Shown: positions 21,959 to 43,131 of the stretch, in pieces | Position numbering within the stretch: the first letter of the stretch is position 1 | How the letters are laid out: the number at the start of each line of letters is the position of its first letter | DNA from: Shinella zoogloeoides | GTDB lineage: Bacteria; Pseudomonadota; Alphaproteobacteria; Rhizobiales; Rhizobiaceae | Direction: 5' to 3' | DNA: 64,000 nt | Assembly: GCF_030733845.1 (NCBI RefSeq) | Contig: NZ_CP132311.1 | Span: 124,001 to 188,000 of the forward strand | Notes under the pieces: generated by a model | Told to the model about the DNA's origin: nothing | The model's database searches: none | Seen by the model: only the letters and a program-made list of their open reading frames with translations | Program-made: the position numbers and the translations under genes

Positions 21959-21980
21959 CGCCCCTCGGGAACCCCCTTTC

Positions 21981-23568: not shown

Positions 23569-23586
23569 CGATCGCGCGGTGAAACC

Positions 23587-24402: not shown

Positions 24403-27380
24403 TGGCAGAGACGATCGTACCGCTCGAGCGCCAGCGCAAACTGGTGGACGTTGCCGCCCGCGTGCGCGAGCAGCTGGGCCTTCAGAACGCAGCCCTGATG
24501 CAGGCCAGCGAACTGCGGGACCGTTCCACCCATACCGGCCTGCAGGCGATGTCGACGATCACCGGCCTCGTCGACCTCCTTGCGTCGAAGGCCTCGACAG
24601 AGTCCGTTGCTGCGGCCATTGCAGATCTGGTGAACAGCTCGCCGGCTGCGCTGGACACGTTGCAGGAACTGGCCGCGGCGCTCGGCAACGACCCGAACTT
24701 TGCGGCGACGGTTTCGGCCGCGCTCGGCAACAGGCTCAGGGTCGATGCCGCGCAGGCGCTGTCCGGTGCCCAGAAGAACCAGGCGGCGGCGAACATCGGC
24801 ATCGCGCCCGGAGCGACGGCCAATGCGACGGACGCAGACTTGCGCGCCCGTGCCTCGCATACCGGCGAACAGGCCATGTCCACGGTCACGGGCCTCGTTG
24901 CGGCGCTTGCCTCGAAGGCGACGCCGGCCGACATCGCTGTCGCAATTGCAGGCCTTGTCGACAGCGCGCCAGGAGCGCTCGACACGCTGAAGGAATTCGC
25001 CGATGCGCTCGGCAATGATCCGAACTTCGCGGCGACGATTTCGACGGCGCTGGGGAACCGGCTGCGGGTCGATGCTGCGCAGGCCCTCACGACCGGGCAG
25101 AAGAACCAAGCGGCGGCGAACCTCGGCATTGCGCCGGGCGCGACCGCGAACGACACGGACGCGAACCTCAAGAGCCGTGCGAACCACACGGGTACTCAGG
25201 GAGTGGACACCATCTCCGGCATCGGGGAGTGGGTGGAGGACCGGGTGGCGGGTCTGCTAGAGGCGGGCCCCAACATTACCCTGGACTACGACGACGTAGC
25301 GGGCAGGCTGACCATCGGGGCAACCGGCGACCTCAACACGACGGCAGAGAGCACCACGTTTGTACCGGCTGGTGGTCTAACCTCCACTAACGTGCAGGGT
25401 GCTCTTTCGGAACTTGGCAGTTTTAAGCTCAACGAGATGTCGGGAGCCGTACAGTCTGGAGAAGACCTGAACGACCTCAAAGACAACCTGCGTATGGTTA
25501 TTGCGCCTACAGGAGTACTGAACCATCCGGAGCCTGGGTCTTACATGTGGCTCGACTCCTGGTTTGACGGAAATTCCTGCACGCAGTACGCACGCGGGGT
25601 GTATCATAATTCGGAATACAGACGATATGGTAACGCTACTACGAACTACTGGGAACCGTGGACTCAGTTGACCAATCAAGGCGGTCACGACCCTACCTCC
25701 GTTAACCGGGGAGGGGATGCCATGTATGGTGATCTACTCATTGCTAAGGACTACCCGAATCTACTCCTGCGGGCGCTTAACCCAGCTAATCCGGCAGTAG
25801 TCACTTTCCGTAGGGATGACGATACGACCTCGGGTGTTCTGGTTGCTCAGCGAGATGGTAACCTTCAGTACGGGGTGTATGGCCCAGATGGTGCTTGGCG
25901 CGGAACTCCCTTCGAGATCGATACCGGTAACTTGGCGTTTACGACGCCTACAGGGTTTAAGTGGATCAGGTCTGTTAACCTGCCCTATGGCACCGATCTG
26001 GACACCGTCACTCAGGGTGGAACGTACTTCGTACAGACCACTACCAACGCTCCCAATCAGGCGAACTTCGAGGCGTTCTTGCGCGTCGAAAGCGCATATG
26101 GGACGGACTCTCTCGTTACTCAAGAATACCACATGCCGTACAATGCTAACTACTCTGGCAGACCCGCCAAGTGGGTGCGTCGTAGGCACAGTGGTTTCTG
26201 GGGGGCGTGGTATCCAGAAGGTGGCTGGATTACTCCTGAGCATTTCAGTGCTGCTGGTGACGGTAGTGCAGATGACACTCTGGCTGTAGCTGCTGCGCTG
26301 CGGTTCCCCGCCCCGGTACTGCTCGCCGGTCTATACCGCCTGACGGGTCCTGTGCACTTCGGCGTTGGCTACAACAGTGAGCCGCTGCCGAACGTGCTTA
26401 TACAGGGCAAAGGCCAGCGTGCCTTCTATCTGGCAACTGCAGATGCGGGGCTGGTGTTCCACACCGGGGAGGCGCAGGTCATCGGTGGGCGAGCTAGCAT
26501 TACCGCTAGGGACTTCGTAGGTATCTGCGGAGTTAGCAACCACACCACGGCGCTCCTTAAGGTGGAGGGCGGCCTAGGATCGGGTTCTACTGAGAAGACG
26601 TTTGACATCAGGAACGTGCACTCCTTCGGGGACGCTCATGACGCTGCACCGCTCTATGGCATCCACCTTCACAACGGGCGCAACGGCGTCATTGATGGAA
26701 CGGTGCACCAGGGCAAGCGCAATGGGGTTCCCGGATCGATGGAGGGTGCAGCCGTCTACCTTACTGGTGGGGAAGACCCGGTGGGCATCAACATAACCAA
26801 CTGGAAGGCTTATTTCTGCCAGGCGGGGGTCAATATCCAAGACACTCATGAGGGCATCGAGGTCAGCAGCGGCGAGGCCGTGATGGTCGACTATGGCGTC
26901 CTTGCCGATCTTGACGAGACGGTCCCCTCCGGAAACGACGAGGGCAAGCCGCTCCTCAAGGTGGTGAACAACCATTTCAACGTGCACCGCTACGGCGTAT
27001 TCATGAACGATGTCCGGGACTTCAACATCACGAACAACGACTTCCTGTTCCAAGGTTCGGGCGCCAAGATCGGCATCTGGGTAAATGCCCGGTCCACCGC
27101 AACCCTCTATGGCGAGATCAGCGGAAACAAGTTCGATGGGTCCAACTCGACGGGATCGGTAACCGGGATCTGGTGCCAGGGATTTTCGGGTGGCGGCACG
27201 CTCGGGACGCACGTCGGCCTCAATCGCTATGTACTTCTCAGCTACGGCCTTTATCTCGGCGACCATGCGCGCGGCGTGACCTATCACGGCGCCAGCATCT
27301 ACGCGGCCGTCGGCACGACGGTCTACGCCTCGGGGTCCAGCTCCGGCATTCTCCGCTACGGCGTTCCTGCCGCCGTTTGA
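24402..27380 (+). CDS. Tail fibre with repeats and a right-handed beta-helix (depolymerase-like) domain
   Basis: 992 aa from ATG 24402; a longer frame from 24174 only reads through the previous gene. The N-terminus attaches to the baseplate. Residues 41-258 are two 109-aa repeats (TLQELAAALGNDPNFAATV type) and a third begins. Residues about 270-610 are mosaic beta domains with different codon use. From GDGSADDTLAVAAAL (about 620) a pectate-lyase-like beta-helix runs to the end, with many N-rich turns (NITNNDFLFQGSG). Such domains bind or cut surface polysaccharide. This is the main receptor-binding candidate. Confidence 0.85.
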   Translation: MAETIVPLERQRKLVDVAARVREQLGLQNAALMQASELRDRSTHTGLQAMSTITGLVDLLASKASTESVAAAIADLVNSSPAALDTLQELAAALGNDPNFAATVSAALGNRLRVDAAQALSGAQKNQAAANIGIAPGATANATDADLRARASHTGEQAMSTVTGLVAALASKATPADIAVAIAGLVDSAPGALDTLKEFADALGNDPNFAATISTALGNRLRVDAAQALTTGQKNQAAANLGIAPGATANDTDANLKSRANHTGTQGVDTISGIGEWVEDRVAGLLEAGPNITLDYDDVAGRLTIGATGDLNTTAESTTFVPAGGLTSTNVQGALSELGSFKLNEMSGAVQSGEDLNDLKDNLRMVIAPTGVLNHPEPGSYMWLDSWFDGNSCTQYARGVYHNSEYRRYGNATTNYWEPWTQLTNQGGHDPTSVNRGGDAMYGDLLIAKDYPNLLLRALNPANPAVVTFRRDDDTTSGVLVAQRDGNLQYGVYGPDGAWRGTPFEIDTGNLAFTTPTGFKWIRSVNLPYGTDLDTVTQGGTYFVQTTTNAPNQANFEAFLRVESAYGTDSLVTQEYHMPYNANYSGRPAKWVRRRHSGFWGAWYPEGGWITPEHFSAAGDGSADDTLAVAAALRFPAPVLLAGLYRLTGPVHFGVGYNSEPLPNVLIQGKGQRAFYLATADAGLVFHTGEAQVIGGRASITARDFVGICGVSNHTTALLKVEGGLGSGSTEKTFDIRNVHSFGDAHDAAPLYGIHLHNGRNGVIDGTVHQGKRNGVPGSMEGAAVYLTGGEDPVGINITNWKAYFCQAGVNIQDTHEGIEVSSGEAVMVDYGVLADLDETVPSGNDEGKPLLKVVNNHFNVHRYGVFMNDVRDFNITNNDFLFQGSGAKIGIWVNARSTATLYGEISGNKFDGSNSTGSVTGIWCQGFSGGGTLGTHVGLNRYVLLSYGLYLGDHARGVTYHGASIYAAVGTTVYASGSSSGILRYGVPAAV
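24522..25175 (+). repeat. Two 327-bp tandem repeats in the tail fibre gene
   Basis: The unit starting at 24522 recurs at 24849 with a strict period of 327 bp (109 codons), and a third copy begins at 25176 before diverging. Each codes a helix-rich segment followed by HTG. The copies differ at many third positions, so the duplication is old. Confidence 0.85.
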
Positions 27381-27445
27381 ACGGCGGGCAGGCCCTTCAG
27401 CCCGTCACGACGGCTCCCTTCTCCTGACATTCAAGAGGTATCGAC

Positions 27446-28360
27446 ATGCAATACGTCCCACCGCTGGGCGAAGCCAACCCCAATGCGTCCTATAAGGACA
27501 GGAATACCGCCGCGGGCCAGCCCGGATCGCGCGTGCCGGCGCCGGCGATCGAGCACGCCATGCGCGAGATCGTCGCCGTGATCGTGGATGCTGGTCTGAC
27601 GCCGACAGGTGAAGACCTGACACAGCTTCTTCAGGCGATCGACCTGAAGATTTCGGCGATCACCGGGGAGGGCGACGGGGCGCTCTATGTGCTAATGGAG
27701 GCCCTGCGCTCGCGCAATCCGATCTTTCCTGAGGTCGTCAGCGCCGATGGTTCTTTCAATCTCTCGACGCCGGCGCTTGGCACGGTGCGGATCCCGCCCG
27801 GCATCCAGATCGTCCACCGGGGGTGTTTCAGCGACACCACGGTGCAGCAGGATCTTTCGACCGTTCCGAACAAGACCTATCACCTGCGCAAGAACTGGTC
27901 GACCGGCTGGAGCCTAAAGGATGTCGCGGACGCGACTTACAATCCGTCGGCGCTTCCTGAGGGGCACGCCACCTTCGACACCAGCTATGACGACATGATA
28001 ACGCACCGCATCGTGACCAATGCGTCGAACGTCGCGACCATCACCAACCTCAAGAACAAGGACCGGCTGGCGATCCATGCGGGCGTAACCGGCACGAACT
28101 TCGTCGAGGCAAACGGTGGGAATTCGCGCGCGGATTTCCTGCTCGAACTCAATTGGGCCCGCACGCCGAAGACGCGCAGCTACAGCATGACGGGCGTGGC
28201 GGCCACGGACGGCCTGGTCGATGACCGGGACATCGTGCTCTACTCCAGCTACCCGGGTGTGCAGGCCGCAGAGATCCCCGCAACGCGCTACCGGATCGCC
28301 TACACCATGCTCTATGACTACACCTACACGCTGACGGCCGCGATGAACGCGCAGGCTTGA
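27446..28360 (+). CDS. Second tail fibre or receptor-binding protein
   Basis: 304 aa. The N-terminal 70 residues (MQYVPPLGEANPNASYKDRN, then PAPAIEHAMREI and TQLLQAIDLKI) form the anchoring domain seen at the beginning of many rhizobial phage fibres. The remainder is beta-rich with no enzyme motif. It follows the large fibre and is the last structural gene before the sugar cassette. A chaperone for the fibre is less likely because of the fibre-type N-terminus. Confidence 0.65.
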   Translation: MQYVPPLGEANPNASYKDRNTAAGQPGSRVPAPAIEHAMREIVAVIVDAGLTPTGEDLTQLLQAIDLKISAITGEGDGALYVLMEALRSRNPIFPEVVSADGSFNLSTPALGTVRIPPGIQIVHRGCFSDTTVQQDLSTVPNKTYHLRKNWSTGWSLKDVADATYNPSALPEGHATFDTSYDDMITHRIVTNASNVATITNLKNKDRLAIHAGVTGTNFVEANGGNSRADFLLELNWARTPKTRSYSMTGVAATDGLVDDRDIVLYSSYPGVQAAEIPATRYRIAYTMLYDYTYTLTAAMNAQA

Positions 28361-28438
28361 CCTGTTCACTTATTCACAATCAGATTGTAGGTATCCGTGA
28401 AGAGGTAATAGTCCGCCAATCTGGCGCTTTTACGCCAT

Positions 28439-29980
28439 TCAACCAATCTTGTAGTTTGTACTGACAACAGTCTTCTGTTCCATCAAAGGCTCGCGCATAA
28501 GTACTTCCATGGCTGGAATCCCCAGCAGCTGCTGCATGAACACGCGATGATGGCCATCGATATTGAGGGCCGAGAAGGATTCGCCTGACAGCTTTTTGAA
28601 GGTTAGCGCGCCTTCGCCAGGGCGGATGGTGGGCGGCGCAACGAGATGACCATTTCCGCTCAGGATGTTGGTAATGTCCTGATACTTGTGCTCGATCTTC
28701 TGGAGGAGAAGGAACTCGTCATCGACAAGGTACTTGAGGTTCTGATCGAGACGCCCCTCTTTGATGGCCTGTCTAAATTCGTGAGCAAAGACATTGCCAG
28801 CCGTCAGGTTCCCGGTCGTTGAGAACTCGTGGTAACCCGCCATGAAGAGTTCGAAATAGGAGGTTCCGAGGCCCTGAATGGTCGGTTTCTTATCCGTAAC
28901 TTTTTTGGCGACGTCCGCGGCGTGTCCTGCGAATGCCTCGACCGTCGTCTTCCCGTGACGTGTAAAATAGTCATGGTCGAAATACATATCGGTCGTCACT
29001 TGATGCAGTTTGAGCGTTCGAGCCAACCGCGCTGCTGTTTTTGCGAACACCATGAAGCAGCGGCTTTTCCGCATGTCGCGTTTCTCATCGTAGCCAACGA
29101 CCCGAAAATATGGGAAGTACTTCGACATTGGCTTAGTGTACATCTCGAGGCCATGGTCGAGGGTATGGGTTTCAAAGACGACTACATCTGCGATGTCCGC
29201 GATTTTATCGAGAAGGTGTGCGGTGTATACCCACACTGCAAACGTCATCACGATGTCATACTTCATGCCCTCGTAGAGAGCCCTGTCGGTTGCGTCGCCT
29301 TGGAACAGCGAGACGCGGGTCATGCCTGTTGCGGCATTGATCATGCGTCCGGTCTCAACAAAGAGCGGATCATATTCGTAGCCGTCCACCAAGGCTGCGC
29401 CCCGCTTTCGGGCAAGTCTCGACATTTCGCCGGTGTTGGCGCCGATATCTAACGCGGTTTTGCCGGCGAAATCCACATGATCAAGGAAGAGATTTCTGTG
29501 GGGGCGTCCACCTTGGGTGGCAATGAGATCGAGGTCAACTGATTGGTAACCATTGCCCGTCTTGATGCCGTCCTTTGACGAGATACTCGTATACTCGTGT
29601 CGCATCGCTGTGACGATTTCCTGCACATAGCGATCCTTAAATGACGGTACGGTGGGGGCTGACTTCTCAGGTGCCGGGGACACAAGATCGCCGAGAGGGT
29701 AGGCAACATTGAGAGCGTCGTTATAAAGATAGACAGAAAGCGGCCACGTCTTGGACGACAAACAGTCCGGAAGCTTCATGTCGAAGTCTACCGACGTCGT
29801 GTTTTCGGCAAAAACGAATCGCCGTGCGGCGTCGACAATAATGAGTGCGTTGCCTTCAACCGGGCCTTCGACCCTGCCCTTCACTCGCAGACTGTTGCCG
29901 CTGTGACTGATCTGGACATTGCCAACCGGGTTCCAGCTATTGCGAAAGTCGACGTTGTTGGGATCGATGAAGAGAGACAA
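28439..29980 (-). CDS. SAM-dependent methyltransferase with N-terminal beta domain
   Basis: 513 aa, opposite to the phage genes. Residues 1-100 look like a beta sandwich. Residues about 170-300 are a class I methyltransferase: motif I ALDIGANTGEMSRLA, an acidic loop GYEYDPLF, and GDATDRALYE. The C-terminal end has LNIDGHHRVFMQQLLGIP, similar to the DGHHR motif of ParB/sulfiredoxin-like folds. The combination suggests methylation of a sugar or surface compound; the substrate is not visible. It is the first gene of a lower-G+C cassette inserted between fibres and lysis genes. Confidence 0.75.
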   Translation of the reverse strand: MSLFIDPNNVDFRNSWNPVGNVQISHSGNSLRVKGRVEGPVEGNALIIVDAARRFVFAENTTSVDFDMKLPDCLSSKTWPLSVYLYNDALNVAYPLGDLVSPAPEKSAPTVPSFKDRYVQEIVTAMRHEYTSISSKDGIKTGNGYQSVDLDLIATQGGRPHRNLFLDHVDFAGKTALDIGANTGEMSRLARKRGAALVDGYEYDPLFVETGRMINAATGMTRVSLFQGDATDRALYEGMKYDIVMTFAVWVYTAHLLDKIADIADVVVFETHTLDHGLEMYTKPMSKYFPYFRVVGYDEKRDMRKSRCFMVFAKTAARLARTLKLHQVTTDMYFDHDYFTRHGKTTVEAFAGHAADVAKKVTDKKPTIQGLGTSYFELFMAGYHEFSTTGNLTAGNVFAHEFRQAIKEGRLDQNLKYLVDDEFLLLQKIEHKYQDITNILSGNGHLVAPPTIRPGEGALTFKKLSGESFSALNIDGHHRVFMQQLLGIPAMEVLMREPLMEQKTVVSTNYKIG

Positions 29981-30209
29981 CGGTTATTCCTCGTTTACCA
30001 GTTCTAACTGCGACGGCATCGTCGTACACGACTGCGCATCACTGAGTGAGGTTGCGGACGAACAGTCGCCAATCTCACGATAGGGTTTTATGAAAGTTCT
30101 GTGACAGCCTTTCCGTCGCGATGTCAATACCAGACCCGGTGGTTGGCGGCCCCGCCCCGGACTCTGGCACCTCCCGATCCCGCCGAACGGCTTGCTATAG
30201 AAGTATCTA

Positions 30210-31124
30210 CTAAATCGCTGCGTAAACGCTGAGCATATAGTCCGTAACTTCGGCGACGACGCAGTCTTTGACATGGACATTGTCATCTTCGTAAGCGGAC
30301 ACGCCCCCCATTTTGACCATTTCATAGCTAGGAAAATAATCGACAATAGGGAATGTTTCCGAAATGGACTGCGCCGCACAGCGGAGAACCGACTTCGAAT
30401 ACTCATTCGCGATGACGGCGTCTTGGCCGGTGAACGTAGACCCAATTGGGACAGGTGACACAGTAAGGATTACCTTCAGCCCGGCATCCGAAAGCGCCTG
30501 CATCGCGCCCTCGAGTAACGGCATGACGGTCTCGATTCTCATTGGCCCAAATTTAAACCTGTTGGGTTCTGCTGCCATTACTGGCTGCGGCGGCATCTGG
30601 TTCAGATACAAGCCCGTCGCCTGGTCAAACCACGCTTCCACGAAACCAAGGGTGACGATTACCACCGCCGATTCCTTTAAGCTCGAATAGACTGTGTCAA
30701 CTTCCCTTCTTCGCTCCAGCGCCCGCTCTAAAGTAACCGGATAGCCACCCGGCAGAGAAAGATCGAGATATCCTCCTTTTGATGGTACGATGGTTTCGCT
30801 AGGTAGCGAATTCCCGTTCAATGCAAATAGTATGCGCTGTGACATAGTGCCTGGATTATATTCATTCAGCAGCGCGTTCGACGGGGCTGGCGTCTCTTCG
30901 GTCGGCGTCGTGAAGCGGAGTGTTGGAACGTCGAAGCCTTTCAATTTCCGTTCGATATTTCGAGCAAAGCATGAGCCGATGGTAAAAATCCGGGTATTTG
31001 GTTCCAATGTGAAGCGGGGTTTTATGACGGGATACCGTTCGCGGCGGTCACCTCTCGAAGGGTACTTGGCGCAGGCAATACCCATGCGACGCGCAGCGAG
31101 CGCTTCCTCCCATCCGATTTTCAT
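30210..31124 (-). CDS. GSCFA-domain protein
   Basis: 304 aa from ATG 31124, which has GGAG 10 bases upstream on its strand; a GTG at 31172 is a poorer option. Residues 50-56 GSCFARN are the family signature, with catalytic-type Ser51. The second half holds LTVSPVPIGSTF and DDNVHVKD, as in SGNH/GSCFA acyl-esterase-like folds. Proteins of this kind occur in polysaccharide gene clusters and may add or remove acyl groups. The 230 bp between this gene and the methyltransferase hold no gene that I can support. Confidence 0.8.
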   Translation of the reverse strand: MKIGWEEALAARRMGIACAKYPSRGDRRERYPVIKPRFTLEPNTRIFTIGSCFARNIERKLKGFDVPTLRFTTPTEETPAPSNALLNEYNPGTMSQRILFALNGNSLPSETIVPSKGGYLDLSLPGGYPVTLERALERRREVDTVYSSLKESAVVIVTLGFVEAWFDQATGLYLNQMPPQPVMAAEPNRFKFGPMRIETVMPLLEGAMQALSDAGLKVILTVSPVPIGSTFTGQDAVIANEYSKSVLRCAAQSISETFPIVDYFPSYEMVKMGGVSAYEDDNVHVKDCVVAEVTDYMLSVYAAI

Positions 31125-31314
31125 GTAGTTTACGCTCCGATCTGAACTGCGTTTATATTCGAGATCCAGCACTAGTGACCCGATTACGATCGCGCAAGTC
31201 AGCGCCGACTGGGCCTTGCGTCAGGTAGGGTGCGGCACCGTCACTCGTCGCATCGAATTGACAAACCCGGAGACTTGCTGGAGTTTCGCGGCTACGAACC
31301 AGATGGAAGTGACA

Positions 31315-32028
31315 ATGCACGACACCGCAATGCAGATTGGCAAGAAGTTCTTCGAAATATACCGGCGACCCGAATGGAAAATGGTTATCGACTGTGGTGC
31401 GATGGATATCAACGGAAGCCTGCGAAAGGCGTGCCCTGAAGATATCGTTTATCTTGGACTGGACATCGAGTTTGGAAAATCGGTCGATATCAAAGTCAAT
31501 ATTGGTGATCCGCTTCCGATCCGAGACGATTTTGCTGACTGCGTTGTGTCGTCGTCTCAAATGGAGCACGATGACTTCTTCTGGATGACGTTTCTTGAAT
31601 ATGTGCGCGTCGTGAAGCCAGGCGGCCACATCTACATCAGCGCGCCATCTAACGGATACTATCACAGGTATCCAAACGACAATTGGCGGTTCTATCCTGA
31701 TTGCGGCCATGTGTTGGTGCGGTGGGCCAAGAAGAATGGCTTACAGGTTGAGTTGGTGGAATCCTTCATTGCGGATCGCAAGAAGGACGTGTGGAACGAT
31801 TTCACTGCGGTCTTTGTGAAGGGTGAGGGCGCGCGGCCTGAGCGATTCATCGCAGACGAAATTCCGTCCAGAAATGTTTGGAAACTTGGCGCGAGTGAGC
31901 CGGAAAAGGTTTTTAAACATTCTGAGGACCTCGATCTTATTTACGCGGCGCGTGATCAAGCGGCGGCGGCGGAGAAGGCGCTGAAAGACACAACTCCAGC
32001 GCTTTCCGTCACAGGCCCAGCTTCCTAA
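31315..32028 (+). CDS. Class I methyltransferase, small
   Basis: 237 aa from ATG 31315, preceded by GGAAG; upstream in-frame codons lack a better site. It has a degenerate motif I (VIDCGAMDINGSLR), an acidic end of strand 2 (LGLDIEFG), then DPLPIRDDFADCVVSSSQMEH and VKPGGHIYISAP, the usual motif pattern of methyltransferase 11-type enzymes. Divergent from the GSCFA gene, sharing a promoter region of about 190 bp. Substrate unknown, likely sugar or lipid in this context. Confidence 0.8.
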   Translation: MHDTAMQIGKKFFEIYRRPEWKMVIDCGAMDINGSLRKACPEDIVYLGLDIEFGKSVDIKVNIGDPLPIRDDFADCVVSSSQMEHDDFFWMTFLEYVRVVKPGGHIYISAPSNGYYHRYPNDNWRFYPDCGHVLVRWAKKNGLQVELVESFIADRKKDVWNDFTAVFVKGEGARPERFIADEIPSRNVWKLGASEPEKVFKHSEDLDLIYAARDQAAAAEKALKDTTPALSVTGPAS

Positions 32029-32084
32029 GTCCTGGGTTCTAGGCGTCTCTCCAGCCGAAGCAGCGGCGCCTCGGCTGGAAAAGT

Positions 32085-34685
32085 CTAGGTAGGCATTGTC
32101 TCGTCGGCGCTCATAGCTCTGCGCGAGATAACATCAGCGTAGAGCTGCTCGTACGCGCTTGCGACCTGCCGGATATCGTATCGCTCGCCTATGTTTCTGG
32201 ATATGAGGCTGCACTTGTTACGAAGGTCTACATCAAGGAGCGAGATAATCGCCCCTTCCAACTGAGAGATAAATGTTGCGTCGTCTTCCAGATTGGGAAG
32301 GAGAATTCCTGCCCGGTTATCATCGCTCGTTATCATTGCTCCAATTTCGCCAATTGCCGTAGCGACAATGGGTTTCCCGGCCTGCATGGCTTGTATTAGG
32401 CCCAACGGGAAGGACTCGCCGACAAATCGCGTGGCCAGCACGACAACATCCGATATTTCATAAATGTCTCGTATGTCGTTCCGATAGCCTAGGAGCCTTA
32501 CATTGCTGGGAACGCCTTGCTGGACGAGATCGTCATAGACCGGGCCCGTACCGCATAGAATGAGGCAGAGTGGCGCAGAGGTCGCCTGCTGAGCGGCTTC
32601 GAGAGCTGCTATGGTTTCTCTCCAGCCTTTTTCTTCAATAGCCCTGGATGCAATGACAAACACAATTGCATCGTCGGAGATGTCTAGGTCGGCGCGGCTC
32701 ACGCCACGCTTCGCCCGTGCTTCCGGCACACCATTCGGGATGTGGCGCAGAACGTCGCTGGAAAGCGGAATACCGTCGAGGTGCTTCAGGTTCTTCTGCG
32801 TCAGATATACCCAGCAGTCGACACCGCGGATCATTGTCATCAGGTCCCGGTCGGAAATCGATGCGCTGTCGTAAGAGCCATGAAGGGTAACAACGTAGGG
32901 ATGCCGCTGCCGTGCCCGCTGCAGAAGATAGTACTCGATACCGAGGTAATGGGAATGGACTATGTCGATGGATGCGCTTTCGAGGAAGGCGTCGACGCCA
33001 AATTCGAGGGCATCCTGAATGTCGTAGACGCTCACGCGGCTGTCCAGCTCCTCCCTTACCTTCGAAGCATGGTGATCAACACGGATCGCCAAGAACGAAA
33101 CGAGGAACCCCCTCGAGACCAACTCGTTAGCTAGATATACGGGAAAGAGCTCTCCTCCCCCGAGCTCGAAGCCTAGGACACCCATTAAAATGTGGGTCTT
33201 CGTTCTCTTGGTGGACAATACCTCGGAAACATTGAACGCACCGGGGAGCGAGAAGCCATCGATCTGATCACTGAATCGGTCGAATTGTTCCTCGCAGCGC
33301 TTGTATAGTCGGAGCGTGTTGAGATCGTCGCTGCCCCAATACTCCCGTATCGTTCTCCCGATACGAGCGTGTTCGACGTAGTAGTGCTCAGAAACGAAAC
33401 TCTTGACGGACGTGTTCCCACCGTGCTGCCTAAAATAGGAAACCGCGCTTGGCGCGTAGTGTATTTTACCGCCACGCGAAAGGATCAGATAGAGGTACCA
33501 ATCGCCCAGGATCTTGTACGACATCGCCTCTTTCCATTCGGAAGGAGTGATGACTTGATGCCGGAACACGCAGCCGCCGACGTTGGGAATTATATTGGTA
33601 TTACCGAAGGCAGTTTGGAACAGCTTTGCGGCTGGAATAGAAAAGCTCTCAGCCCAAGCGCCCGGCATGGATTGCTCTCGATAACCGTCCAAGCCTTGCT
33701 GTACCGCGCCACTACGATCAGCAAACTGGATACGCCCAAAGCTTACCATTACGCTTTCGTCAGCGAAGCCTTGAATGACTTCTTCCAGAAATGTCGGCTC
33801 GCAAAAATCGTCGCTCTCGCATATCCACACCAGGTTGCCGTTTGCCGCCTCAATGCCCCGACGCCACTGCGAAAAAATGGAGCCACTATTTCGCTCGTTA
33901 AGGATAGTTGTGATCAGTTCAGGATGCGTTGATCGGAACTTCTCAATTACCGCTCGACTGTCATCGGTTGAGCAGTCATCCAGGATGATGATTTCGAGGT
34001 TCTGATAGGTCTGATTCAGAATGGAATTCAAGCGCTCTTCAAGAAAGGGAGCATGATTGTAGTTCGGTACGATAGCAGTTACTTTTAAGGATACCGTTTT
34101 GCTTTTGACCTTCTGCCGGAATGGAAGAGGTGAGCGTCCCTCGCCTCTTCCGTGCTCAACAAAATGCTGAAGTGGATTCATGCCTGAATGGGCAATGTCA
34201 ACATACATTGCCAAATAATGCGCCGTATTAAATAGGTTTGAAGGGTTTCTGTGCTCCTTCCAGCCGTGGTTCATGTAGTGAAAGAATGGATCAAGATCCG
34301 AGTTCGCAATATCTTGATAGTTTTTCTTATAATATTCCGCATCGAAATATGGGGTGTATTCTTCCTCATTATAAGTGTGCTGAGGAACGTAGGTTTCATC
34401 GGTGCCATTTTTTACTGAGTTTGATTTCTTTCCGCTCCGTATAAAATGTGTTAGAGGGTCAATGCGCTCGTTTACAAGGTGCGGATGCCTTTTAAGATAT
34501 TCGCTTGTAGAGAAATGGGAGGAGGGGTCTCTTCCTTCCTGCCAGCCAAACGTAAGATAATGTTTTAAGGGGTCGTGTCCGCTGTCGCGCACATCGTGAT
34601 TCTTTTCAAGATAGAATGTTTCATCGAATAGAACAGCATACTTTTCGCGCCGAATGCGCCAAAAGAAATTTTTGATGTTTCTCAT
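32085..34685 (-). CDS. Double glycosyltransferase (GT2 + GT4) with N-terminal DPxxHY repeats
   Basis: 866 aa. The first 190 residues carry four units of a motif like FDxxFYLxxxxDVxxSGxDPLxHYLxxGWxEGRxPS, common at the N-terminus of glycan-synthesis enzymes. Residues about 205-430 are a GT2 domain (VTAIVPNYNHAPFLEERL, LDDCSTDDSRA, ESDDF as the DxD-like site). Residues about 520-850 are a GT4 domain (NGVPEARAK, VIASRAIEEKGW, and FPLGLIQAMQAGKPIVAT with its acidic residue in GESF). It should add two different sugars to a growing glycan on the cytosolic side. It is notably low in G+C compared with phage and chromosome. Confidence 0.9.
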   Translation of the reverse strand: MRNIKNFFWRIRREKYAVLFDETFYLEKNHDVRDSGHDPLKHYLTFGWQEGRDPSSHFSTSEYLKRHPHLVNERIDPLTHFIRSGKKSNSVKNGTDETYVPQHTYNEEEYTPYFDAEYYKKNYQDIANSDLDPFFHYMNHGWKEHRNPSNLFNTAHYLAMYVDIAHSGMNPLQHFVEHGRGEGRSPLPFRQKVKSKTVSLKVTAIVPNYNHAPFLEERLNSILNQTYQNLEIIILDDCSTDDSRAVIEKFRSTHPELITTILNERNSGSIFSQWRRGIEAANGNLVWICESDDFCEPTFLEEVIQGFADESVMVSFGRIQFADRSGAVQQGLDGYREQSMPGAWAESFSIPAAKLFQTAFGNTNIIPNVGGCVFRHQVITPSEWKEAMSYKILGDWYLYLILSRGGKIHYAPSAVSYFRQHGGNTSVKSFVSEHYYVEHARIGRTIREYWGSDDLNTLRLYKRCEEQFDRFSDQIDGFSLPGAFNVSEVLSTKRTKTHILMGVLGFELGGGELFPVYLANELVSRGFLVSFLAIRVDHHASKVREELDSRVSVYDIQDALEFGVDAFLESASIDIVHSHYLGIEYYLLQRARQRHPYVVTLHGSYDSASISDRDLMTMIRGVDCWVYLTQKNLKHLDGIPLSSDVLRHIPNGVPEARAKRGVSRADLDISDDAIVFVIASRAIEEKGWRETIAALEAAQQATSAPLCLILCGTGPVYDDLVQQGVPSNVRLLGYRNDIRDIYEISDVVVLATRFVGESFPLGLIQAMQAGKPIVATAIGEIGAMITSDDNRAGILLPNLEDDATFISQLEGAIISLLDVDLRNKCSLISRNIGERYDIRQVASAYEQLYADVISRRAMSADETMPT

Positions 34686-34872
34686 GTCTCGTCCAGAAAT
34701 ACTTGCAAACAGGGCACAGGTTATATCGGCGATTCCTGTGTATTAATTGTGTCACACCGTGGCTGCAGAATGGGGCGGCGAAGGATTCCTTGTCAACTAC
34801 TGCGATGCGGGTTTGGACGCAAGGCGCCCGTGGGTTGGCTGGGTTATCCTCCACTTCGAAAGCAGGATTAAA

Positions 34873-35973
34873 ATGTTCAAAAAGCCGTACGTTGCAGGAA
34901 TAGACGGCGACGCTGTCGTCCAGAAGAAAATCGCGCTTCAGGCGCTCCTACAGGATTTCGGAAACAACACCGGTAACATCATGTTTTCCGAATCCCTTTA
35001 TCGCAATCTCGACAATGCTGTTCGAGGAACCTTCAACTTTACCGCAGACGACGTCGAGGATTGCGACGTTATCGTTCTGGCGGCTGCCAACTGGATGAAC
35101 CCTTACTCCGACTTCGGGGATTTGGCCGCCAAAATTGAGGCGTGCGGGTTACCTTGTGTTATTGTGGGGATCGGAGCTCAAAGCGGCGTCGACAAGAGGC
35201 TCCCAAATATCCATCCGGGAACCATGCGGTTGATCGAATACGCGGGAGCCACGTCCGGCTTGATCTCTACGCGTGGCGGTTTTTCGTCGCATGTGCTTAA
35301 CCATCACGGGATCAAAAACTGTCTCGCTACTGGCTGTCCATCGCTTCTGCTTAACGGCGCGAAAGCAATGGTCAGGGAAGCGCCGGCGAGTCTGACGACC
35401 GCCGATATTATGGTTCATTCGACACGGCATCTGTGGAACCAAGCCGATGCTTTTCAGGGAAAGCTATACCGTTGGGCGATGGAAGACGGTTGCGATATTC
35501 TACTCCAGTCCGAGCTAGCTGACATGTACTATGCGCTCGGGCGGACGAACAACGACGAGATTTTGTCACGCGCAAAGGTCGTGCTCGAAGCGGTTTACGG
35601 TCAGCCGATAGAAGCAGTTGCGGAGTACCTCAAGACTCATGGCAAGGTGCCATTCGCGATGCCGCAATGGGAGTCTTTTCTCAAGGCGAAAAAATTCTGC
35701 ATCGGCACGCGCCTTCATGGGACTGTTGCGGCACTTCTTGCCGGAACGCCTGCTGTTCTAGTCACTCACGATTCGCGGACTGTCGAGACGGCCGAGGCAA
35801 TGAGCATCCCGACGGTCTCAGCGTCGCAGATCGGCGAGCATTTTCACCCTTCGGCGTATGTGAACCAAGCGGCAATCGCCGCGTATCTCAGCGGATATGA
35901 GCGATATCGCCGCAACTTCATGACGTTCTTTCATGTGAATGGACTTCAGACCTCAAAGTACTTTGACCACTAA
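34873..35973 (+). CDS. Polysaccharide pyruvyl transferase-like protein
   Basis: 366 aa from ATG 34873 with AGGA 6 bases upstream. It has PCVIVGIGAQSGVD, LISTRGGFSSHVLNHHGI, and near the end FCIGTRLHGTVAALLAGTPA, the core pattern of polysaccharide pyruvyl transferase (CsaB/WcaK) proteins. Such enzymes add ketal-linked pyruvate to sugars, or act as related sugar transferases. Divergent from the double glycosyltransferase gene. Confidence 0.85.
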   Translation: MFKKPYVAGIDGDAVVQKKIALQALLQDFGNNTGNIMFSESLYRNLDNAVRGTFNFTADDVEDCDVIVLAAANWMNPYSDFGDLAAKIEACGLPCVIVGIGAQSGVDKRLPNIHPGTMRLIEYAGATSGLISTRGGFSSHVLNHHGIKNCLATGCPSLLLNGAKAMVREAPASLTTADIMVHSTRHLWNQADAFQGKLYRWAMEDGCDILLQSELADMYYALGRTNNDEILSRAKVVLEAVYGQPIEAVAEYLKTHGKVPFAMPQWESFLKAKKFCIGTRLHGTVAALLAGTPAVLVTHDSRTVETAEAMSIPTVSASQIGEHFHPSAYVNQAAIAAYLSGYERYRRNFMTFFHVNGLQTSKYFDH

Positions 35974-36070
35974 TGTCCATCCAATGGGTTGCTGAAGCTT
36001 GTGATTGTTAGAGGTTGCAGTGGGATCAACTGTCAGCGGCCGATCGCCGTGCGTCGCCCTGCATACAAGC

Positions 36071-36865
36071 CTAGCTCTCTAGTAGGAGACGGCGCGTCAG
36101 CCGCTCTACGAGCAAGCCCAGGAAAAGACAGGTGATTGCGTAGAACAGAACATAGGGCTTATCGAGATGTCTAGATGCGTATCCTGGATAATAGGCGGAA
36201 CGAACCCATTCAACCACCTGAAAAACAGGATTGAATGAGAGGTAATAGGTTGCTTCATCAGGGAGCCTGCTTGGCACAAACATCACTCCCGAAAGGAGAT
36301 ACAATACGATCAGAAACAGCGCCCAGATCGTGACGAAAAATTTCACGGCCATACACGCAATCCCGACGAGATATCCGGCGCCAATCGCGAGAATAAGGAC
36401 TGACAAATAGCCGAAAACGGCTTCGAAGATGTCCGCCGGTATCGGATCCTCTCCACGAATGAGAAAGATCGAAAAAAGAAGCACCAAGGTCAGAAAAGCG
36501 CCAATGACTTCGAGTAGAGCGCGAGCTGTCATTACGTCCAGGATCGTCACTACAGGAAATGATAGCATGTTTCGGTTCGATAGCACCGACAACGCCATTC
36601 CTCGTGAAACGTACATGAATGTCAGCGTTGGCAGCAATCCGGTCGCGAAAAAGACGGGAAGGCTCTCCCCGTATGGAGTCTGGCGGCCCATGACTGAGTA
36701 AATGGTCAATAGGATCAACATGTGAACCAGCGGCCACACGGGGACCAGTAGGAAGCCTAGGCCGTGGTTGAAGAAGCGGCTCCTCATGTCTCGGAGCATA
36801 ACGGCGACCATAACATTTCTCTTCTCTTGAAGAGCGTGGTGGATAGGATTGGTCTTCGTTGACAT
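36071..36865 (-). CDS. ABC-2 type polysaccharide export permease (KpsM/RkpT-like)
   Basis: 264 aa with six hydrophobic segments (for example FLLVPVWPLVHMLILLTIYSV and LIVLYLLSGVMFVPSRLPD). The pattern FNHGLGFLLVPVWP near the N-terminus and NPVFQVVEWVRSAYYPGY near the end match capsule and O-antigen exporter permeases. In such systems the permease pairs with a separate ATPase; none is encoded here, so a host ATPase would be needed. It ends the sugar cassette. Confidence 0.85.
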   Translation of the reverse strand: MSTKTNPIHHALQEKRNVMVAVMLRDMRSRFFNHGLGFLLVPVWPLVHMLILLTIYSVMGRQTPYGESLPVFFATGLLPTLTFMYVSRGMALSVLSNRNMLSFPVVTILDVMTARALLEVIGAFLTLVLLFSIFLIRGEDPIPADIFEAVFGYLSVLILAIGAGYLVGIACMAVKFFVTIWALFLIVLYLLSGVMFVPSRLPDEATYYLSFNPVFQVVEWVRSAYYPGYASRHLDKPYVLFYAITCLFLGLLVERLTRRLLLES

Positions 36866-36926
36866 GCGTCAGCTCCTGCTCGTTGGCGACGAATAGGTCA
36901 GGCGGGCATTTTTGTCGAGGCTGCAC

Positions 36927-37202
36927 ATGATCCCACGCATCAATCATATCCTGGTCGCACTTTATCGGGCGGGTGGGAGAGGCGTTGATGAACGCCGCCT
37001 TGCGTGGAGCGAGGAGCATTACCCGGCCGTCAACGAGGCGATGCAGCTTGGCCTGGTGGAGCGCAGAACGAGTTTGCGAAAGTCGACATTCTCGCTCACC
37101 AGGCAAGGCTATCGCGAAATCGGACAAAAGCCTCCGGGCGTCACGCCCTATGAGGCGTTTAGAACTGCCGTCTCCTTATTCTTCTTTGGCCCTTCTCGAT
37201 AG
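36927..37202 (+). CDS. Small winged-helix-like protein
   Basis: 91 aa from ATG 36927; a TTG at 36912 is less likely. The core (INHILVALYRAGGRGV ... LGLVERRTSLRKSTFSLTRQGYREI) has the three-helix and wing pattern of MarR/PadR-like small winged-helix proteins. It is back on the phage strand, just before the lysis genes, so it may belong to the original phage. Regulatory role uncertain. Confidence 0.5.
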   Translation: MIPRINHILVALYRAGGRGVDERRLAWSEEHYPAVNEAMQLGLVERRTSLRKSTFSLTRQGYREIGQKPPGVTPYEAFRTAVSLFFFGPSR

Positions 37203-37285
37203 CAGGACGTGACGGGCCTTCGTAATCCGCACCGCGCGTGAGCTCACGCGCGGCGCTCCTGCTTGTCCAAAGGAACGAGAACCCA

Positions 37286-38272
37286 ATGATCACCGCAGCA
37301 CATGTGCGCGCGGCCGCGAAGGCGCGCGTGAACGACAGCAACCTCAACTCCGTCATGACGGCGCTCGATCGCCACGGCGCGGCGGCCGGGCTCGATCTGC
37401 CGCACCGTGCCGTGCACTTCCTCGCGCAGCTGATGCACGAGAGCGGGTCGTTCCGCTTCGATCGCGAGATATGGGGCCCGACGCCGGCGCAGAAGCGGTA
37501 TGACACGCGCACCGATCTCGGCAATACGCCGGCGGCGGATGGCGATGGCTTCAAGAACCGGGGGCGCGGCCCGATCCAGGTGACGGGCGGCTATAACATC
37601 CGGGCGTTCCATGCCTGGTGCGTCGCCAAGGGGATGAACCCGCCGGATTTTGTCAGCAACCCTGATCTCATCAACACCGATCCGTGGGAGGGGCTTTCGG
37701 CGATCTGGTACTGGGATGAGGGCAATCCCGACCGCCGCAGCCTCAACCGCTATGCCGACCGGAACGATCCGGAAATGATCACCCGGCGCATCAATGGCGG
37801 ATTGAACGGCTATCCCGATCGTCTGGACTGCTACACCCGCCTGGGGGTGGTTGTGCTCGGTTACCGCCCCGATGATCTGCGCGGCTTTCAGGGGGCGGCG
37901 CGCGCGGCGGGCAAATATTCCGGCGCGCTCGATGGCCTCGACGGCCCGCAGACCCGCGCGGCGATCCATCTCATGCTTGTGGATCTGGCGCCGGGCAAGG
38001 TGCGGGCGGTGAAGGCCTCGCCGGTGACGGAAGAGAAGCCGGTAGCCGTCATGCCGCAAAGCATTGATGCACCGTGGTGGCAATCGAAGGAAATCCTCGG
38101 GCCGGCCGCAGGTGGCGGGGCGGCGACCACGCTGACGGCGCTTGGCTCGATCCCCTGGCAGAACCTGCTTCTGATCCTCGTCGCCTTCGGCGCTGTCGCC
38201 GGCTTCCTCTACTGGCGCAAGCGCATCGACGCGCGAGATGTGCGCAGCCGGGCGTCCGAGGTTGAGGCATGA
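37286..38272 (+). CDS. Endolysin, GH19-like, with peptidoglycan-binding part and C-terminal membrane anchor
   Basis: 328 aa from ATG 37286. The GH19-like domain spans about residues 1-190: LMHESGSFRFDREIWG with the likely catalytic Glu52, and GFKNRGRGPIQVTGGYNI. A peptidoglycan-binding-like segment follows (GALDGLDGPQTRAAIHLML, about 205-230). Near the C-terminus lies a hydrophobic span (NLLLILVAFGAVAGFLYW) and a charged tail. A C-terminal membrane segment is uncommon for endolysins and could hold it at the membrane before lysis. Followed with a 4-base overlap by the spanin pair. Confidence 0.88.
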   Translation: MITAAHVRAAAKARVNDSNLNSVMTALDRHGAAAGLDLPHRAVHFLAQLMHESGSFRFDREIWGPTPAQKRYDTRTDLGNTPAADGDGFKNRGRGPIQVTGGYNIRAFHAWCVAKGMNPPDFVSNPDLINTDPWEGLSAIWYWDEGNPDRRSLNRYADRNDPEMITRRINGGLNGYPDRLDCYTRLGVVVLGYRPDDLRGFQGAARAAGKYSGALDGLDGPQTRAAIHLMLVDLAPGKVRAVKASPVTEEKPVAVMPQSIDAPWWQSKEILGPAAGGGAATTLTALGSIPWQNLLLILVAFGAVAGFLYWRKRIDARDVRSRASEVEA

Positions 38273-38511
38273 TCCCCTGGCCGAAGATCCTCATGGGCGC
38301 CGCCATCGCCGGCGCCCTTATCTGGCTCTATGCCGAAATCCGCGACCAGGGCGCTCGGTCCGCCACCTCGAAAATCGAAAGGCAGAACAATGAAGCACGC
38401 AACGCGGCTGACGATGCTCGCAGCGCTTATGACCGTTGCCTTGATGGCGGCGGGCTGTGGAATTTCGGGGCCGGTCGATGTGACAGGTCTTCGCCGCGTC
38501 GCGGGGACTGA
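38269..38511 (+). CDS. Inner-membrane spanin subunit (Rz-like)
   Basis: 80 aa. An N-terminal membrane segment (ILMGAAIAGALIWLYAEI) is followed by a charged helical stretch suited to a coiled coil in the periplasm (SKIERQNNEARNAADDARSAYD). An o-spanin gene is embedded in the +1 frame from 38390. Position behind the endolysin is classical. Spanins fuse inner and outer membranes in the last step of lysis. Confidence 0.8.
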   Translation: MIPWPKILMGAAIAGALIWLYAEIRDQGARSATSKIERQNNEARNAADDARSAYDRCLDGGGLWNFGAGRCDRSSPRRGD

Positions 38512-38635
38512 TCTAATTGGCGCCCGCGGGGAAACTCCGGCTGATCAGCGGAAGATCGACCGAACGGTCGTCGGCTTGTGCGCCGGCAAGGTGTGGACCG
38601 CTGAAGAGTGCCGTCAGCATGGAGATAAACAATGA
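38390..38635 (+). CDS. Outer-membrane spanin lipoprotein (Rz1-like), overlapping
   Basis: 81 aa in the +1 frame relative to the i-spanin, starting inside that gene and extending beyond it. A signal peptide of 22 residues ends in a lipobox (LMAAGC, Cys23). The mature lipoprotein would have 59 residues. The frame-overlapping arrangement is the hallmark of Rz/Rz1 pairs. A longer in-frame start at 38330 would put a basic stretch before the signal peptide and is rejected. Confidence 0.85.
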   Translation: MKHATRLTMLAALMTVALMAAGCGISGPVDVTGLRRVAGTDLIGARGETPADQRKIDRTVVGLCAGKVWTAEECRQHGDKQ

Positions 38636-38985
38636 GCCCATCAGACTTCGACCCGCGCATGCATCAGCAAATGGGGGAGGTGCTTGCCGAGATCCGGAAC
38701 CTGCGCGATGCTTTCCGGCAAGCCGAACTCAAGTCCGACACGAGCCGGGCCGCTATGCACTCTCGCATGGATCAGCTCGTAGACCGCATCGGAAAGGTCG
38801 AGGGCGGCGTCGCAGCCGTCCAGGAGGACGTGACCGAGATGAGGCCTGTCACGGACGAGGTAAAGCGCTGGAAACTCATGGGTATGGGCGCGCTGGCCGT
38901 CACGGGTCTTGCTGCTATGGCGTTGGGGGTTACCTTCAGCGAAGCGTTGAAGCGCATCGGCATGGTGATCATTGGCAAAGGCTAA
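38632..38985 (+). CDS. DUF1515-type protein with C-terminal membrane segment
   Basis: 117 aa. A helical, coiled-coil-like part (HQQMGEVLAEIRNLRDAFRQ and RMDQLVDRIGKVEGGVAAVQ) is followed by PVTDEVKRWKLMGMGALAV and a single membrane segment. This is the DUF1515 pattern known from rhizobial prophages. As it is the only other membrane protein in the lysis block, a holin or lysis-control role is plausible but not shown. Confidence 0.8.
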   Translation: MSPSDFDPRMHQQMGEVLAEIRNLRDAFRQAELKSDTSRAAMHSRMDQLVDRIGKVEGGVAAVQEDVTEMRPVTDEVKRWKLMGMGALAVTGLAAMALGVTFSEALKRIGMVIIGKG

Positions 38986-39105
38986 CCGGGAAATCCTTCA
39001 GCGGATCGAAGAGGGGCAGCGCTGAGGGATTGAGCGGCGGTAGATTGAGAACGCCCGCGGCAAGACGGGCGTCTGCACAACAAGGCTTCGTTCACGCTTG
39101 GGCAT

Positions 39106-39486
39106 TCACCATGAGTTTACGCCCACCATCTCCTTGCCGTTGTACACCTCGACCTTGTTGGGCGCGACGAGGCGCCAGCGCTCGCAGACCTCCTTGCCGT
39201 CATCGAGGCCTTCCCAGGTTCGGCAGAACCTGTTTCCTTCGATCCGCCATTTCCCCTTGATCACGATCTTGTCGCCGCTGTCTGGCTGAGCGGACCCGTT
39301 GCCCGTTCCATCTGCGGCCAGGGCAAGAGTTCCCGTATACCCCTGACCTTTCCCGCCGAGCTGCAAGGTCTTTCCGCCTTCCAGCAATGTCTTGAGTTCG
39401 GCTTCCTTCATGTCTTTCCCCGCCGCATATGCGGACGAAGCGGTAAGTCCCAAAAGCAGCATTGTCGGCAAAAGTAGATTTCGCAT
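39106..39486 (-). CDS. Small secreted protein of unknown function
   Basis: 126 aa with a clear signal peptide (MRNLLLPTMLLLGLTASSAYA, cut after AYA by the usual rule; shown here in 21 residues only as MRNLL...SSAYA). The mature part is beta-rich with two cysteines (RFCRTWEG and EVCERWRLV) likely to form a disulfide, and resembles small periplasmic DUF995-like proteins. A strong AGGAGGA site precedes the start, and TTGACT at 39533-39538 on its strand could be the -35 box. Separately transcribed cargo. Confidence 0.7.
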   Translation of the reverse strand: MRNLLLPTMLLLGLTASSAYAAGKDMKEAELKTLLEGGKTLQLGGKGQGYTGTLALAADGTGNGSAQPDSGDKIVIKGKWRIEGNRFCRTWEGLDDGKEVCERWRLVAPNKVEVYNGKEMVGVNSW

Positions 39487-39546
39487 GGCAATCCTCCTCT
39501 AAACAACTTCATGTTGAATTAGCTTTTTGGAAAGTCAAGCGGCACG

Positions 39547-39572
39547 AAAAAGCCCGCCGGTGAGGGCGGGCT
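39547..39572 (-). terminator. Rho-independent terminator of the three-gene module
   Basis: An 8-bp perfect stem (39551-39558 with 39565-39572, AGCCCGCC/GGCGGGCT) with a 6-base loop is followed on the minus strand by five T residues (39547-39551 read in reverse). It lies 24 bp beyond the end of the module at 39596-41041 and before the secreted protein gene's start region. Confidence 0.85.
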
Positions 39573-39595
39573 ATCAATTCGAGGAGGCTGGCGGT

Positions 39596-40363
39596 TTACG
39601 CTGCTATGCGCTCCAACTCTCGCCAGTCGGCCGTTGCGTCTATGAGGCGAGCCGTTCTATTGAGGATCAAGAGCTGATCCGAACCGAAGAACTGTTTGCC
39701 CTTCAGAACCGCGACCGTTCTGGGCGCTTCTGCTAGGCGCCGGATATCGTCCAATTTCATGTAAGCAGATGATACTGAGATGGGTGAAGGGGATACGGCT
39801 TCAACTGCGATATCAGCGCTCTCTGTGTGGACCAGCGCATCCACCGTCCAGCTGTGCGTGGACGCGCCAGAAATTGTTGCGTCAGCTGAAACTCTCTTGG
39901 CCCCGAAAACATCAACAAGCCGGTCGATAATTGATGTTTTGAGGTCGAAATCTAGCTTTCTAGCCAACCGGTCTGCAGTAACTTGTACGGCACGCCGTGC
40001 TGCATCGGCAATAATTGCAATGACCCCAGGCAGGTTCTCGATCCGGGCGTCTGCTTCGAATATTTCGAAATTATTGAATCTCAGCCCAGCATCCTCTGCT
40101 ATATGCCTTGCCGCGCGACGGAATATCTCGCTCGCCCCCATCATATCAGCTTCGCTGTACGCCGCGCCATCATCTGAAACGAGGCAGCGATCTCCATTAA
40201 AGGAAACCAAGATACTGACATGCGCTCCGGAAGGGAAAAGTACGGGCGTTGTTACGACGGTTCCGCGCGCAAGGCGTTTAGCGCGTACAAGCTCGCTTGC
40301 GATCCGGTCAACAAAGTTGCCGGGAGTCAATGGCTCGTTCATAAACCCAACTGCAGCGACCAT
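39596..40363 (-). CDS. Uncharacterised protein, DUF1828-like N-terminus
   Basis: 255 aa. The N-terminal 90 residues (ASELVRAKRLARGTVVTTP ... CLVSDDGAAYSEADMMG) have the pattern of DUF1828-type domains, which carry a VSDDGxxxxxL motif. The C-terminal part (IIDRLVDVFGAKRVSADATI ... HTWTVDALV-like and AVLKGKQFFGSDQLLI) resembles the DUF1829-type partner, with a possible nuclease-like beta-alpha core. Last gene of a tightly overlapping trio with its own terminator. Function unknown; cargo of the defence or toxin kind is inference. Confidence 0.6.
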   Translation of the reverse strand: MVAAVGFMNEPLTPGNFVDRIASELVRAKRLARGTVVTTPVLFPSGAHVSILVSFNGDRCLVSDDGAAYSEADMMGASEIFRRAARHIAEDAGLRFNNFEIFEADARIENLPGVIAIIADAARRAVQVTADRLARKLDFDLKTSIIDRLVDVFGAKRVSADATISGASTHSWTVDALVHTESADIAVEAVSPSPISVSSAYMKLDDIRRLAEAPRTVAVLKGKQFFGSDQLLILNRTARLIDATADWRELERIAA

Positions 40364-41041: not shown

Positions 41042-41228
41042 TGAGTTTCCCCTCGCGCGCACGATAGCGCGATTCACAGTCGGCACAAGAGTTTACGCTC
41101 GCTCCGCCTACCATCGACAATTGATAAAATGCCCGTCGTTTCCTTCAGGGTTCGTCCAACGTCGGATGTTACCAACGCGTGTAGACGATCATGTAATGCT
41201 GTTTTGGGTTATACAGCGGAGTGGGGCG

Positions 41229-43130: not shown

Positions 43131-43131
43131 C

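Follow-up and report, generated by a model that had tools for sequence, protein, structure and literature searches.

What do genes for surface sugars do in a prophage, and on which structure of the host surface would they act? The question is raised by a 64,000-nucleotide stretch of Shinella zoogloeoides DNA (C2:124001-188000 of the 5.18-Mb assembly), here called the window, whose coordinates are used unless C2 is prefixed. In this window, six genes of sugar-modification type (28439-36865) stand in the late region of a prophage, and a complete rmlCADB operon for dTDP-L-rhamnose (41707-45105) stands close to its end. Judging from gene content, we think it fairly probable that the element is a temperate PPF1-like myovirus with a lysogenic-conversion module, which carries counterparts of the type-specific half of an ATP-binding cassette (ABC)-transporter-dependent capsule (K-antigen) locus and a permease that would use the KpsT and KpsE of the host.

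The sequence-only reading of this DNA had described the six genes as a low-G+C cassette separating the fibre genes from the lysis genes of a prophage, and that description holds. All six open reading frames (ORFs; mechanically called, strands - - + - + -) are open, positioned as described, and of the domain types proposed when compared with Pfam: two methyltransferases (MT1 and MT2), a GSCFA-family protein, a glycosyltransferase with two domains, a pyruvyl transferase-like protein and an ABC-2 permease (Table 1). At 52.3%, the G+C content of the cassette falls below that of the prophage on its left (63.0%) and of the lysis genes (63.7%), and is the lowest among 459 windows of equal length (8.4 kb) in the prophage; the host flanks have 65.1 and 66.4%, and the host capsule locus 59.8%. 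Tail-fibre ORFs adjoin the cassette on the left and an endolysin/chitinase gene on the right. The placement inside a prophage also stood. The tRNA-Gly(CCC) gene lies at C2:115081-115154, outside the window, with a tyrosine integrase gene beside it, and an exact second copy of its final 47 bases occurs at 45303-45349. The prophage so delimited is C2:115108-169349 (54,242 bp), with its left end outside the window and its right end at 45349; the attachment (att) repeat and the tRNA bound it, and the sugar genes lie inside. The tRNA motif was present in 21 of the 21 genus genomes examined, single-copy in 19 of the 20 other congeners and in two copies in the own genome and in congener G016. When the congener tRNA-Gly loci were compared over 1.5 kb on each side, the homologue of the window from about 46797 began roughly 80-170 bp past the tRNA in 10 of 20.

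As to the extent of the set, the earlier description was right about the six genes and left out rmlCADB. The operon lies inside the att sites, about 200 bp from attR, has a host-like G+C content of 63.8%, and all four of its genes exceed the NCBIfam equivalog cut-offs. There are thus about ten surface-sugar genes in two blocks, a cassette of foreign composition and a host-like rml operon beside attR. The next best RmlB match in the own genome reaches 35%, and this rmlCADB is probably the only one of the genome, as judged by RmlB (RmlA, RmlC and RmlD were not searched genome-wide). Ten of the 21 genus genomes, including the own, have an RmlB match of at least 54%, and the other 11 reach 33-36% at best.

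The two blocks were compared with capsule loci of relatives. The best congener RmlB (84%) is that of G011, where the operon is part of a capsule locus with the order KpsE-KpsT-KpsE-glycosyltransferase-KpsM-glycosyltransferase-rmlCADB-repeat glycosyltransferase, followed by ybaK and trxA. The own chromosomal capsule locus is at the equivalent place (C2:3.515-3.524 Mb) and is without the rml operon and the repeat glycosyltransferase present in G011; its last glycosyltransferase gene is followed by ybaK after about 550 bp. The prophage and G011 rml operons are 82.3% identical over 3,405 bp, in a match confined to the operon, and their proteins are 84-91% identical. The other capsule genes of the two genomes are 71-98% identical, except for the first methyltransferase (37%). 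As the rml identities resemble those of the other capsule genes, the operon originates in the genus or close to it; by composition and relatives, the low-G+C cassette does not. The prophage glycosyltransferase is 32% identical over 888 columns to the rml-adjacent protein of the G011 locus. In G151, of another Rhizobiaceae genus, one locus holds KpsE, KpsT, KpsE, a glycosyltransferase, rmlCBDA, a repeat glycosyltransferase, a pyruvyl transferase 43% identical to that of the prophage and, next to it, KpsM (57%). The distal half of such a locus thus has its counterparts in the prophage, and the export half is in the host.

The best NCBIfam model for the prophage permease is KpsM, at 87 bits and below the cut-off of 300, and the protein is 57% identical to the host KpsM. 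The own genome has two KpsM permeases (E 1e-3) and a single KpsT-type ATPase (E 1e-30; 150 of 187 candidates scored), which lies at 3.52 Mb, outside the prophage; a search inside the prophage found neither KpsT nor KpsE. The prophage set would therefore seem to be part of an ABC-transporter-dependent capsule (kps/rkp) locus, incomplete without these two components. The combination of KpsM, rml, a repeat glycosyltransferase and a pyruvyl transferase points to such a capsule rather than to a gtr-type system. Among the cassette proteins there was no match to the GtrA or GtrC families in Pfam or PHROGs, and GtrB-like PHROGs matched the GT2 domain only. The proposal of a conversion island for capsule or O-antigen stands in its genomic part; the make-up of the genes favours the capsule over O-antigen seroconversion of the gtr type.

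Table 1. Features of the prophage and its sugar genes, in window coordinates unless C2 is prefixed
Feature	Position	Strand	Evidence
MT1, 513-residue S-adenosylmethionine (SAM) methyltransferase with conserved N- and C-terminal extensions	28439..29980	-	Pfam Methyltransf_25 2e-6
GSCFA-family protein	30210..31172	-	Pfam GSCFA 2e-41, 143 bits (cut-off 25)
MT2, SAM methyltransferase	31216..32028	+	Pfam Methyltransf_11 3e-5, 24.8 bits (cut-off 21.2)
866-residue glycosyltransferase with N-terminal repeats	32085..34685	-	Pfam GT2 4e-27 and GT4-type 2e-18
Polysaccharide pyruvyl transferase-like protein	34747..35973	+	Pfam PS_pyruv_trans PF04230 2e-16
KpsM-type capsule export permease	36071..36865	-	Pfam ABC2_membrane 9e-7, 29.1 bits (cut-off 26.9)
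rmlC	41707..42249	-	TIGR01221 276.9 bits (cut-off 155.75)
rmlA	42249..43130	-	TIGR01207 518.9 bits (cut-off 360.65)
rmlD	43132..44022	-	TIGR01214 324.1 bits (cut-off 224.05)
rmlB	44026..45105	-	TIGR01181 502.3 bits (cut-off 365.1)
Tail-fibre ORFs, left of cassette	24174..28360	+	PHROGs tail fibre
GH19-type endolysin/chitinase, right of cassette	37238..38272	+	PHROGs chitinase 4e-134, endolysin 8e-48
attR, 47-bp copy of the tRNA-Gly(CCC) 3' end	45303..45349	+	exact repeat
attL copy of the 47-bp repeat	C2:115108-115154 (outside window)		repeat of the tRNA-Gly(CCC) 3' end
Section of the prophage that falls within the window	1..45349	.	att repeat and structural gene order as in PPF1

These genes suggest a course of events in the lysogen. 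The rmlCADB operon of the prophage would make dTDP-rhamnose, its glycosyltransferase would build or extend a chain, and the methyltransferases, the GSCFA protein and the pyruvyl transferase would add decorations or a cap to it. Joined to the KpsT and KpsE-like proteins of the host, the phage KpsM would then export the changed polymer. The lysogen would in this way mask or alter the structure bound by its own and other phages, resulting in superinfection exclusion. Considered as a whole, the gene set indicates that the prophage probably changes the coat of its host and that the exclusion of other viruses is most likely what this serves.

In the case of the permease, the relatives were followed further. 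Seven are 70-93% identical to the prophage copy, and beyond these none exceeds 62% among the 120 listed of 207. In a tree of 37 permeases, the prophage copy, the seven, P0092 and the copy of viral contig L160 formed one clade (support 97/93), separate from the sampled capsule-locus permeases, and the own capsule KpsM paired with that of G011. The permease of viral contig L071 stood apart on a very long branch, and the three phage-linked permeases did not form one group. The prophage permease had no match in 50,697 phage records, had L160 as its single viral-contig match over three scans, and matched 319 plasmid records, all below 60%. A comparison of P0081 with 377 genomes of the order yielded no close new copy, with three genomes at E 1e-80 and a best identity, besides the own genome, of 57%. 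More tentatively, a phage lineage of KpsM permeases may convert capsules by permease exchange: the prophage would supply the substrate-side half of capsule synthesis (rhamnose supply, glycosyltransferase, decorating or capping enzymes and permease), the phage KpsM would dock on the single KpsT and KpsE of the host and divert export, and the rhamnose supply of the capsule would now depend on the prophage. If this is true, a cured strain would have an altered capsule or none. Two 143-kb Shinella plasmids, NZ_OZ000537.1 and NZ_OZ012604.1, each carry a 57% relative of the permease, and congener G018 has a KpsM that equals P0106, a protein named from Shinella yambaruensis, in all of 265 residues. 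The L160 permease is identical to one from Rhizobium sp. RAS22; in L160:1-3511 it stands alone beside a fibre-like ORF, with a lambda-like tail module by eye.

The phage that carries these genes belongs to a recognizable type. Its sheath protein is 65% identical to that of Rhizobium phage PPF1 (vB_RleM_PPF1), 56% to that of RR1-A and 31% to that of SfV, and the terminase, portal, sheath, tape measure and baseplate genes have an order common to the prophage and PPF1. The decoration and capsid proteins match RR1-A and not PPF1 (E 1e-5). By these shared, ordered structural genes, the element is classed as a PPF1-like myoprophage. PPF1 and RR1-A have terminase, sheath, tail and baseplate genes in the order seen in the prophage, but their annotations contain no such sugar cassette, and the papers searched that use the name PPF1 contained no polysaccharide or capsule term. 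A related prophage in congener G005 passes from fibre to lysozyme, and in the stretch of it that was fetched none of the cassette and rml proteins had a match; by this absence, the two blocks would not be needed for phage growth.

The end of the prophage is where a different history of the two blocks has to be considered. The phage may carry the low-G+C cassette only, and rmlCADB may be an older tRNA-Gly island, or moved host capsule genes, that separates the phage from the outer att site. We regard this as doubtful. It would explain the host-like 63.8% G+C of the operon and its 84-91% identity to the congener capsule copy, and it fits the absence of rml from all the related loci compared, where the genes of 39106-41549 are also unmatched, as well as the segment particular to the own genome (45350-46797) directly outside attR. 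However, no third att copy was found in the window, even allowing 18 mismatches in 47, and PPF1 itself has lysis genes followed by accessory genes, attP and integrase, a similar layout.

For the slot that the cassette occupies, we assembled 24 related prophages and viral contigs in which over 6 kb could be viewed beyond the baseplate gene (a first set of 29 loci gave 20, nine short ones being dropped, and a second set of ten gave four, six being duplicates) and scanned all 104 mechanical ORFs of at least 190 residues lying 1.4-8.5 kb downstream of that gene. Among the first 25 of 36 families listed were Phage_lysozyme (8), Acyl_transf_3 (7), Methyltransf_11 (3), GSCFA (1), GT92 (1) and polysaccharide deacetylase (1); one Methyltransf_11 member and the deacetylase were not assigned to a locus. 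At least 11 of the 24 have a likely surface-sugar gene near this slot, mostly a single acyltransferase (L058, L063, L067, L068, L069, L079 and L149). A methyltransferase occurs in L066 and, at the cut-off, in L142; L074 has a sub-threshold methyltransferase and a GSCFA gene, the latter beyond the lysozyme gene. In L071, a PPF1-like viral contig, the fibre-lysis interval contains a GT92-type transferase together with an ABC-2 permease that is only remotely similar (26%) and scores just below the Pfam cut-off. Outside this set, G050 has an acyltransferase-like ORF by eye; none was seen in G056 and G087 by eye, in the annotation of RR1-A, or in G005. Relatives thus appear often to place one conversion-type gene in this slot. 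Locus L065, dropped as too short in view, has a methyltransferase. The comparison of same-type prophages with and without the cassette, as the sequence-only reading had proposed, sets G005, without a match, beside relatives that often have one gene. Of the two findings that would have spoken against a phage island, neither was seen in the assembled sequence: an assembly error joining two loci, or the same genes in all related chromosomes without phage genes around. Full-length MT1 was found in 0 of 393 other Rhizobiaceae genomes.

The slot also bears on which glycan is modified. The genes may act on another surface glycan, such as a lipopolysaccharide O-chain or an exopolysaccharide, with the permease having its own or an unidentified partner. 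None of the methyltransferase, GSCFA and pyruvyl transferase families is specific to capsules, and the acyltransferases of related prophages are of O-antigen type; on the other side stand the KpsM type of the permease, the capsule-locus counterparts in G011 and G151, and the single genomic KpsT, and we consider this alternative unlikely.

Several observations weigh against a phage-borne capsule module. Promoter-like sites in the cassette number 4, compared with 7.2 in shuffles, by a consensus from another bacterial group. For 13 of the 24 relatives no surface-sugar gene was identified in the slot, and rmlCADB may have been accreted as an island, as set out above. The L160 permease lies at the very end of its contig, possibly in host flank, and in stretches of G253, G412, G044, G453 and G219 a KpsM stands among sugar-gene-like ORFs, which argues against a trait of phages only; these five stretches matched neither KpsT or KpsE nor the structural proteins of the prophage. 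The lack of an excess of promoter-like sites and the alternating strands would also suit passive cargo, either unexpressed or decaying foreign DNA or an artefact of assembly. This we hold to be very unlikely, as all ten frames are open, rmlABCD pass their equivalog cut-offs, the flanking phage genes are in PPF1 order, the permease has relatives at 70-93%, and the prophage lies on a 3.96-Mb contig.

The preferred reading, a capsule-conversion module that depends on host export, differs from known conversions in its scale. Known phage surface conversions, to our knowledge, use few genes. Serotype-converting phages of the SfV type carry gtrABC or oac, and gtr consists of three genes near attP. 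They resemble the present prophage as contractile-tail temperate phages with surface-sugar genes ending the late region, but a gtrABC cluster holds GtrA, GtrB and GtrC together, and the cassette is without a GtrA or GtrC match.

In Acinetobacter baumannii, prophage genes change the capsule (PMC9241936, PMC13228068, PMC9676051). Phage Wzy, EpaAB and O-acetyltransferases alter a capsule made from a chromosomal locus, and defence against related phages is proposed, as here; those prophages use one or two genes on a Wzy-dependent capsule. The present case, known from sequence, comprises about ten genes, among them one for an export permease, and would concern an ABC-transporter-dependent capsule. 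Phage acetyltransferases that give superinfection immunity are covered in a review (PMC9558356). A prophage of Shimia haliotis, also alphaproteobacterial, carries a complete dTDP-rhamnose operon, rfbABCD; the portion of that report consulted names this operon and a glycogen-synthase gene and does not mention an export permease or capsule cassette (PMC8224337). Sinorhizobium meliloti isolates in which the region around rkpT1/rkpT2 is replaced reportedly have an altered K-antigen and phage resistance; like the prophage, such rhizobial rkp/kps loci with second permeases combine KpsM-type permeases with type-specific genes, but they lie on a symbiotic megaplasmid rather than in a prophage (PMC5429615).

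Among the results listed from the open-access literature searched, there was no description of a prophage with a KpsM permease and a glycan cassette, and nothing on prophage rmlB with rhamnose in serotype conversion. Conversion of the capsule by prophages and an rml operon in a prophage are each already known; a set of many genes that includes its own KpsM is a new variation on them. The case suggests that phages can bring in the type-specific half of a capsule locus while depending on their host for the export engine. Capsule type in the Rhizobiaceae could then switch by lysogeny, and a prediction of the surface from the typed capsule locus alone would be wrong. With its two permeases, single ATPase and single rml operon, the strain also makes a testable system for whether KpsM selects the exported polymer. 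We rejected one candidate precedent for a phage-borne operon, the phage record OQ658368 (rmlA 78.5%), where attL lies between rml and the integrase gene and rml is flanking host DNA; it was the only one examined of 182 phage records with rmlA matches, and rml on other phages is possible.

Among the individual cassette proteins, MT1 has its closest relative at 57% identity. The absence of full-length copies noted above applies with three candidates scored per genome; matches occur in 56 of 394 genomes, including the own, and those in the other genomes span at most about 134 residues. An alignment of MT1 had no match against viral contigs. Its predicted structure has a mean predicted local distance difference test (pLDDT) score of 76, and the structure matches among the 50 PDB rows listed are methyltransferases with a query template-modelling (TM) score of at most 0.29. 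The top PDB match is WbdD, but the score is too low to justify a function as a WbdD-like kinase-methyltransferase. Near the C terminus of MT1, DGHHR is invariant in 12 of 12 aligned relatives, presumably reminiscent of ParB/sulfiredoxin-like motifs. For the GSCFA protein, 26 of 151 relatives match, including the own, with the next best at 39%; no match was found in phage records, viral contigs or one scan of genome contigs, and a role in polysaccharide modification is assumed from gene context. The interval between the lysis genes and rml (39106-41549) holds low-G+C (55.6%) ORFs, and those scanned (39106, 39596, 40339 and 40980) had no Pfam match.

The same tRNA-Gly gene is used in congener G016 (G016:C8:92459, G016:C2:5457; L137, L139) by an element whose integrase is 79% identical, with the second tRNA copy on a different contig. 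The stretches fetched share only the integrase, MT-A70 and NusG-like genes with the prophage, plus one 26% match, and this otherwise different-looking element was uninformative as a guide to the origin of rml. Two segments outside the att sites were unmatched at the tRNA-Gly loci of 20 congeners: 45350-46797, just outside attR, with a short-chain-dehydrogenase-like ORF, and about 1 kb to the left of the tRNA (L005, about 9980-11030), with an FkbM methyltransferase. Both look like further segments specific to the own genome, and they may be what is left of additional insertions at this tRNA.

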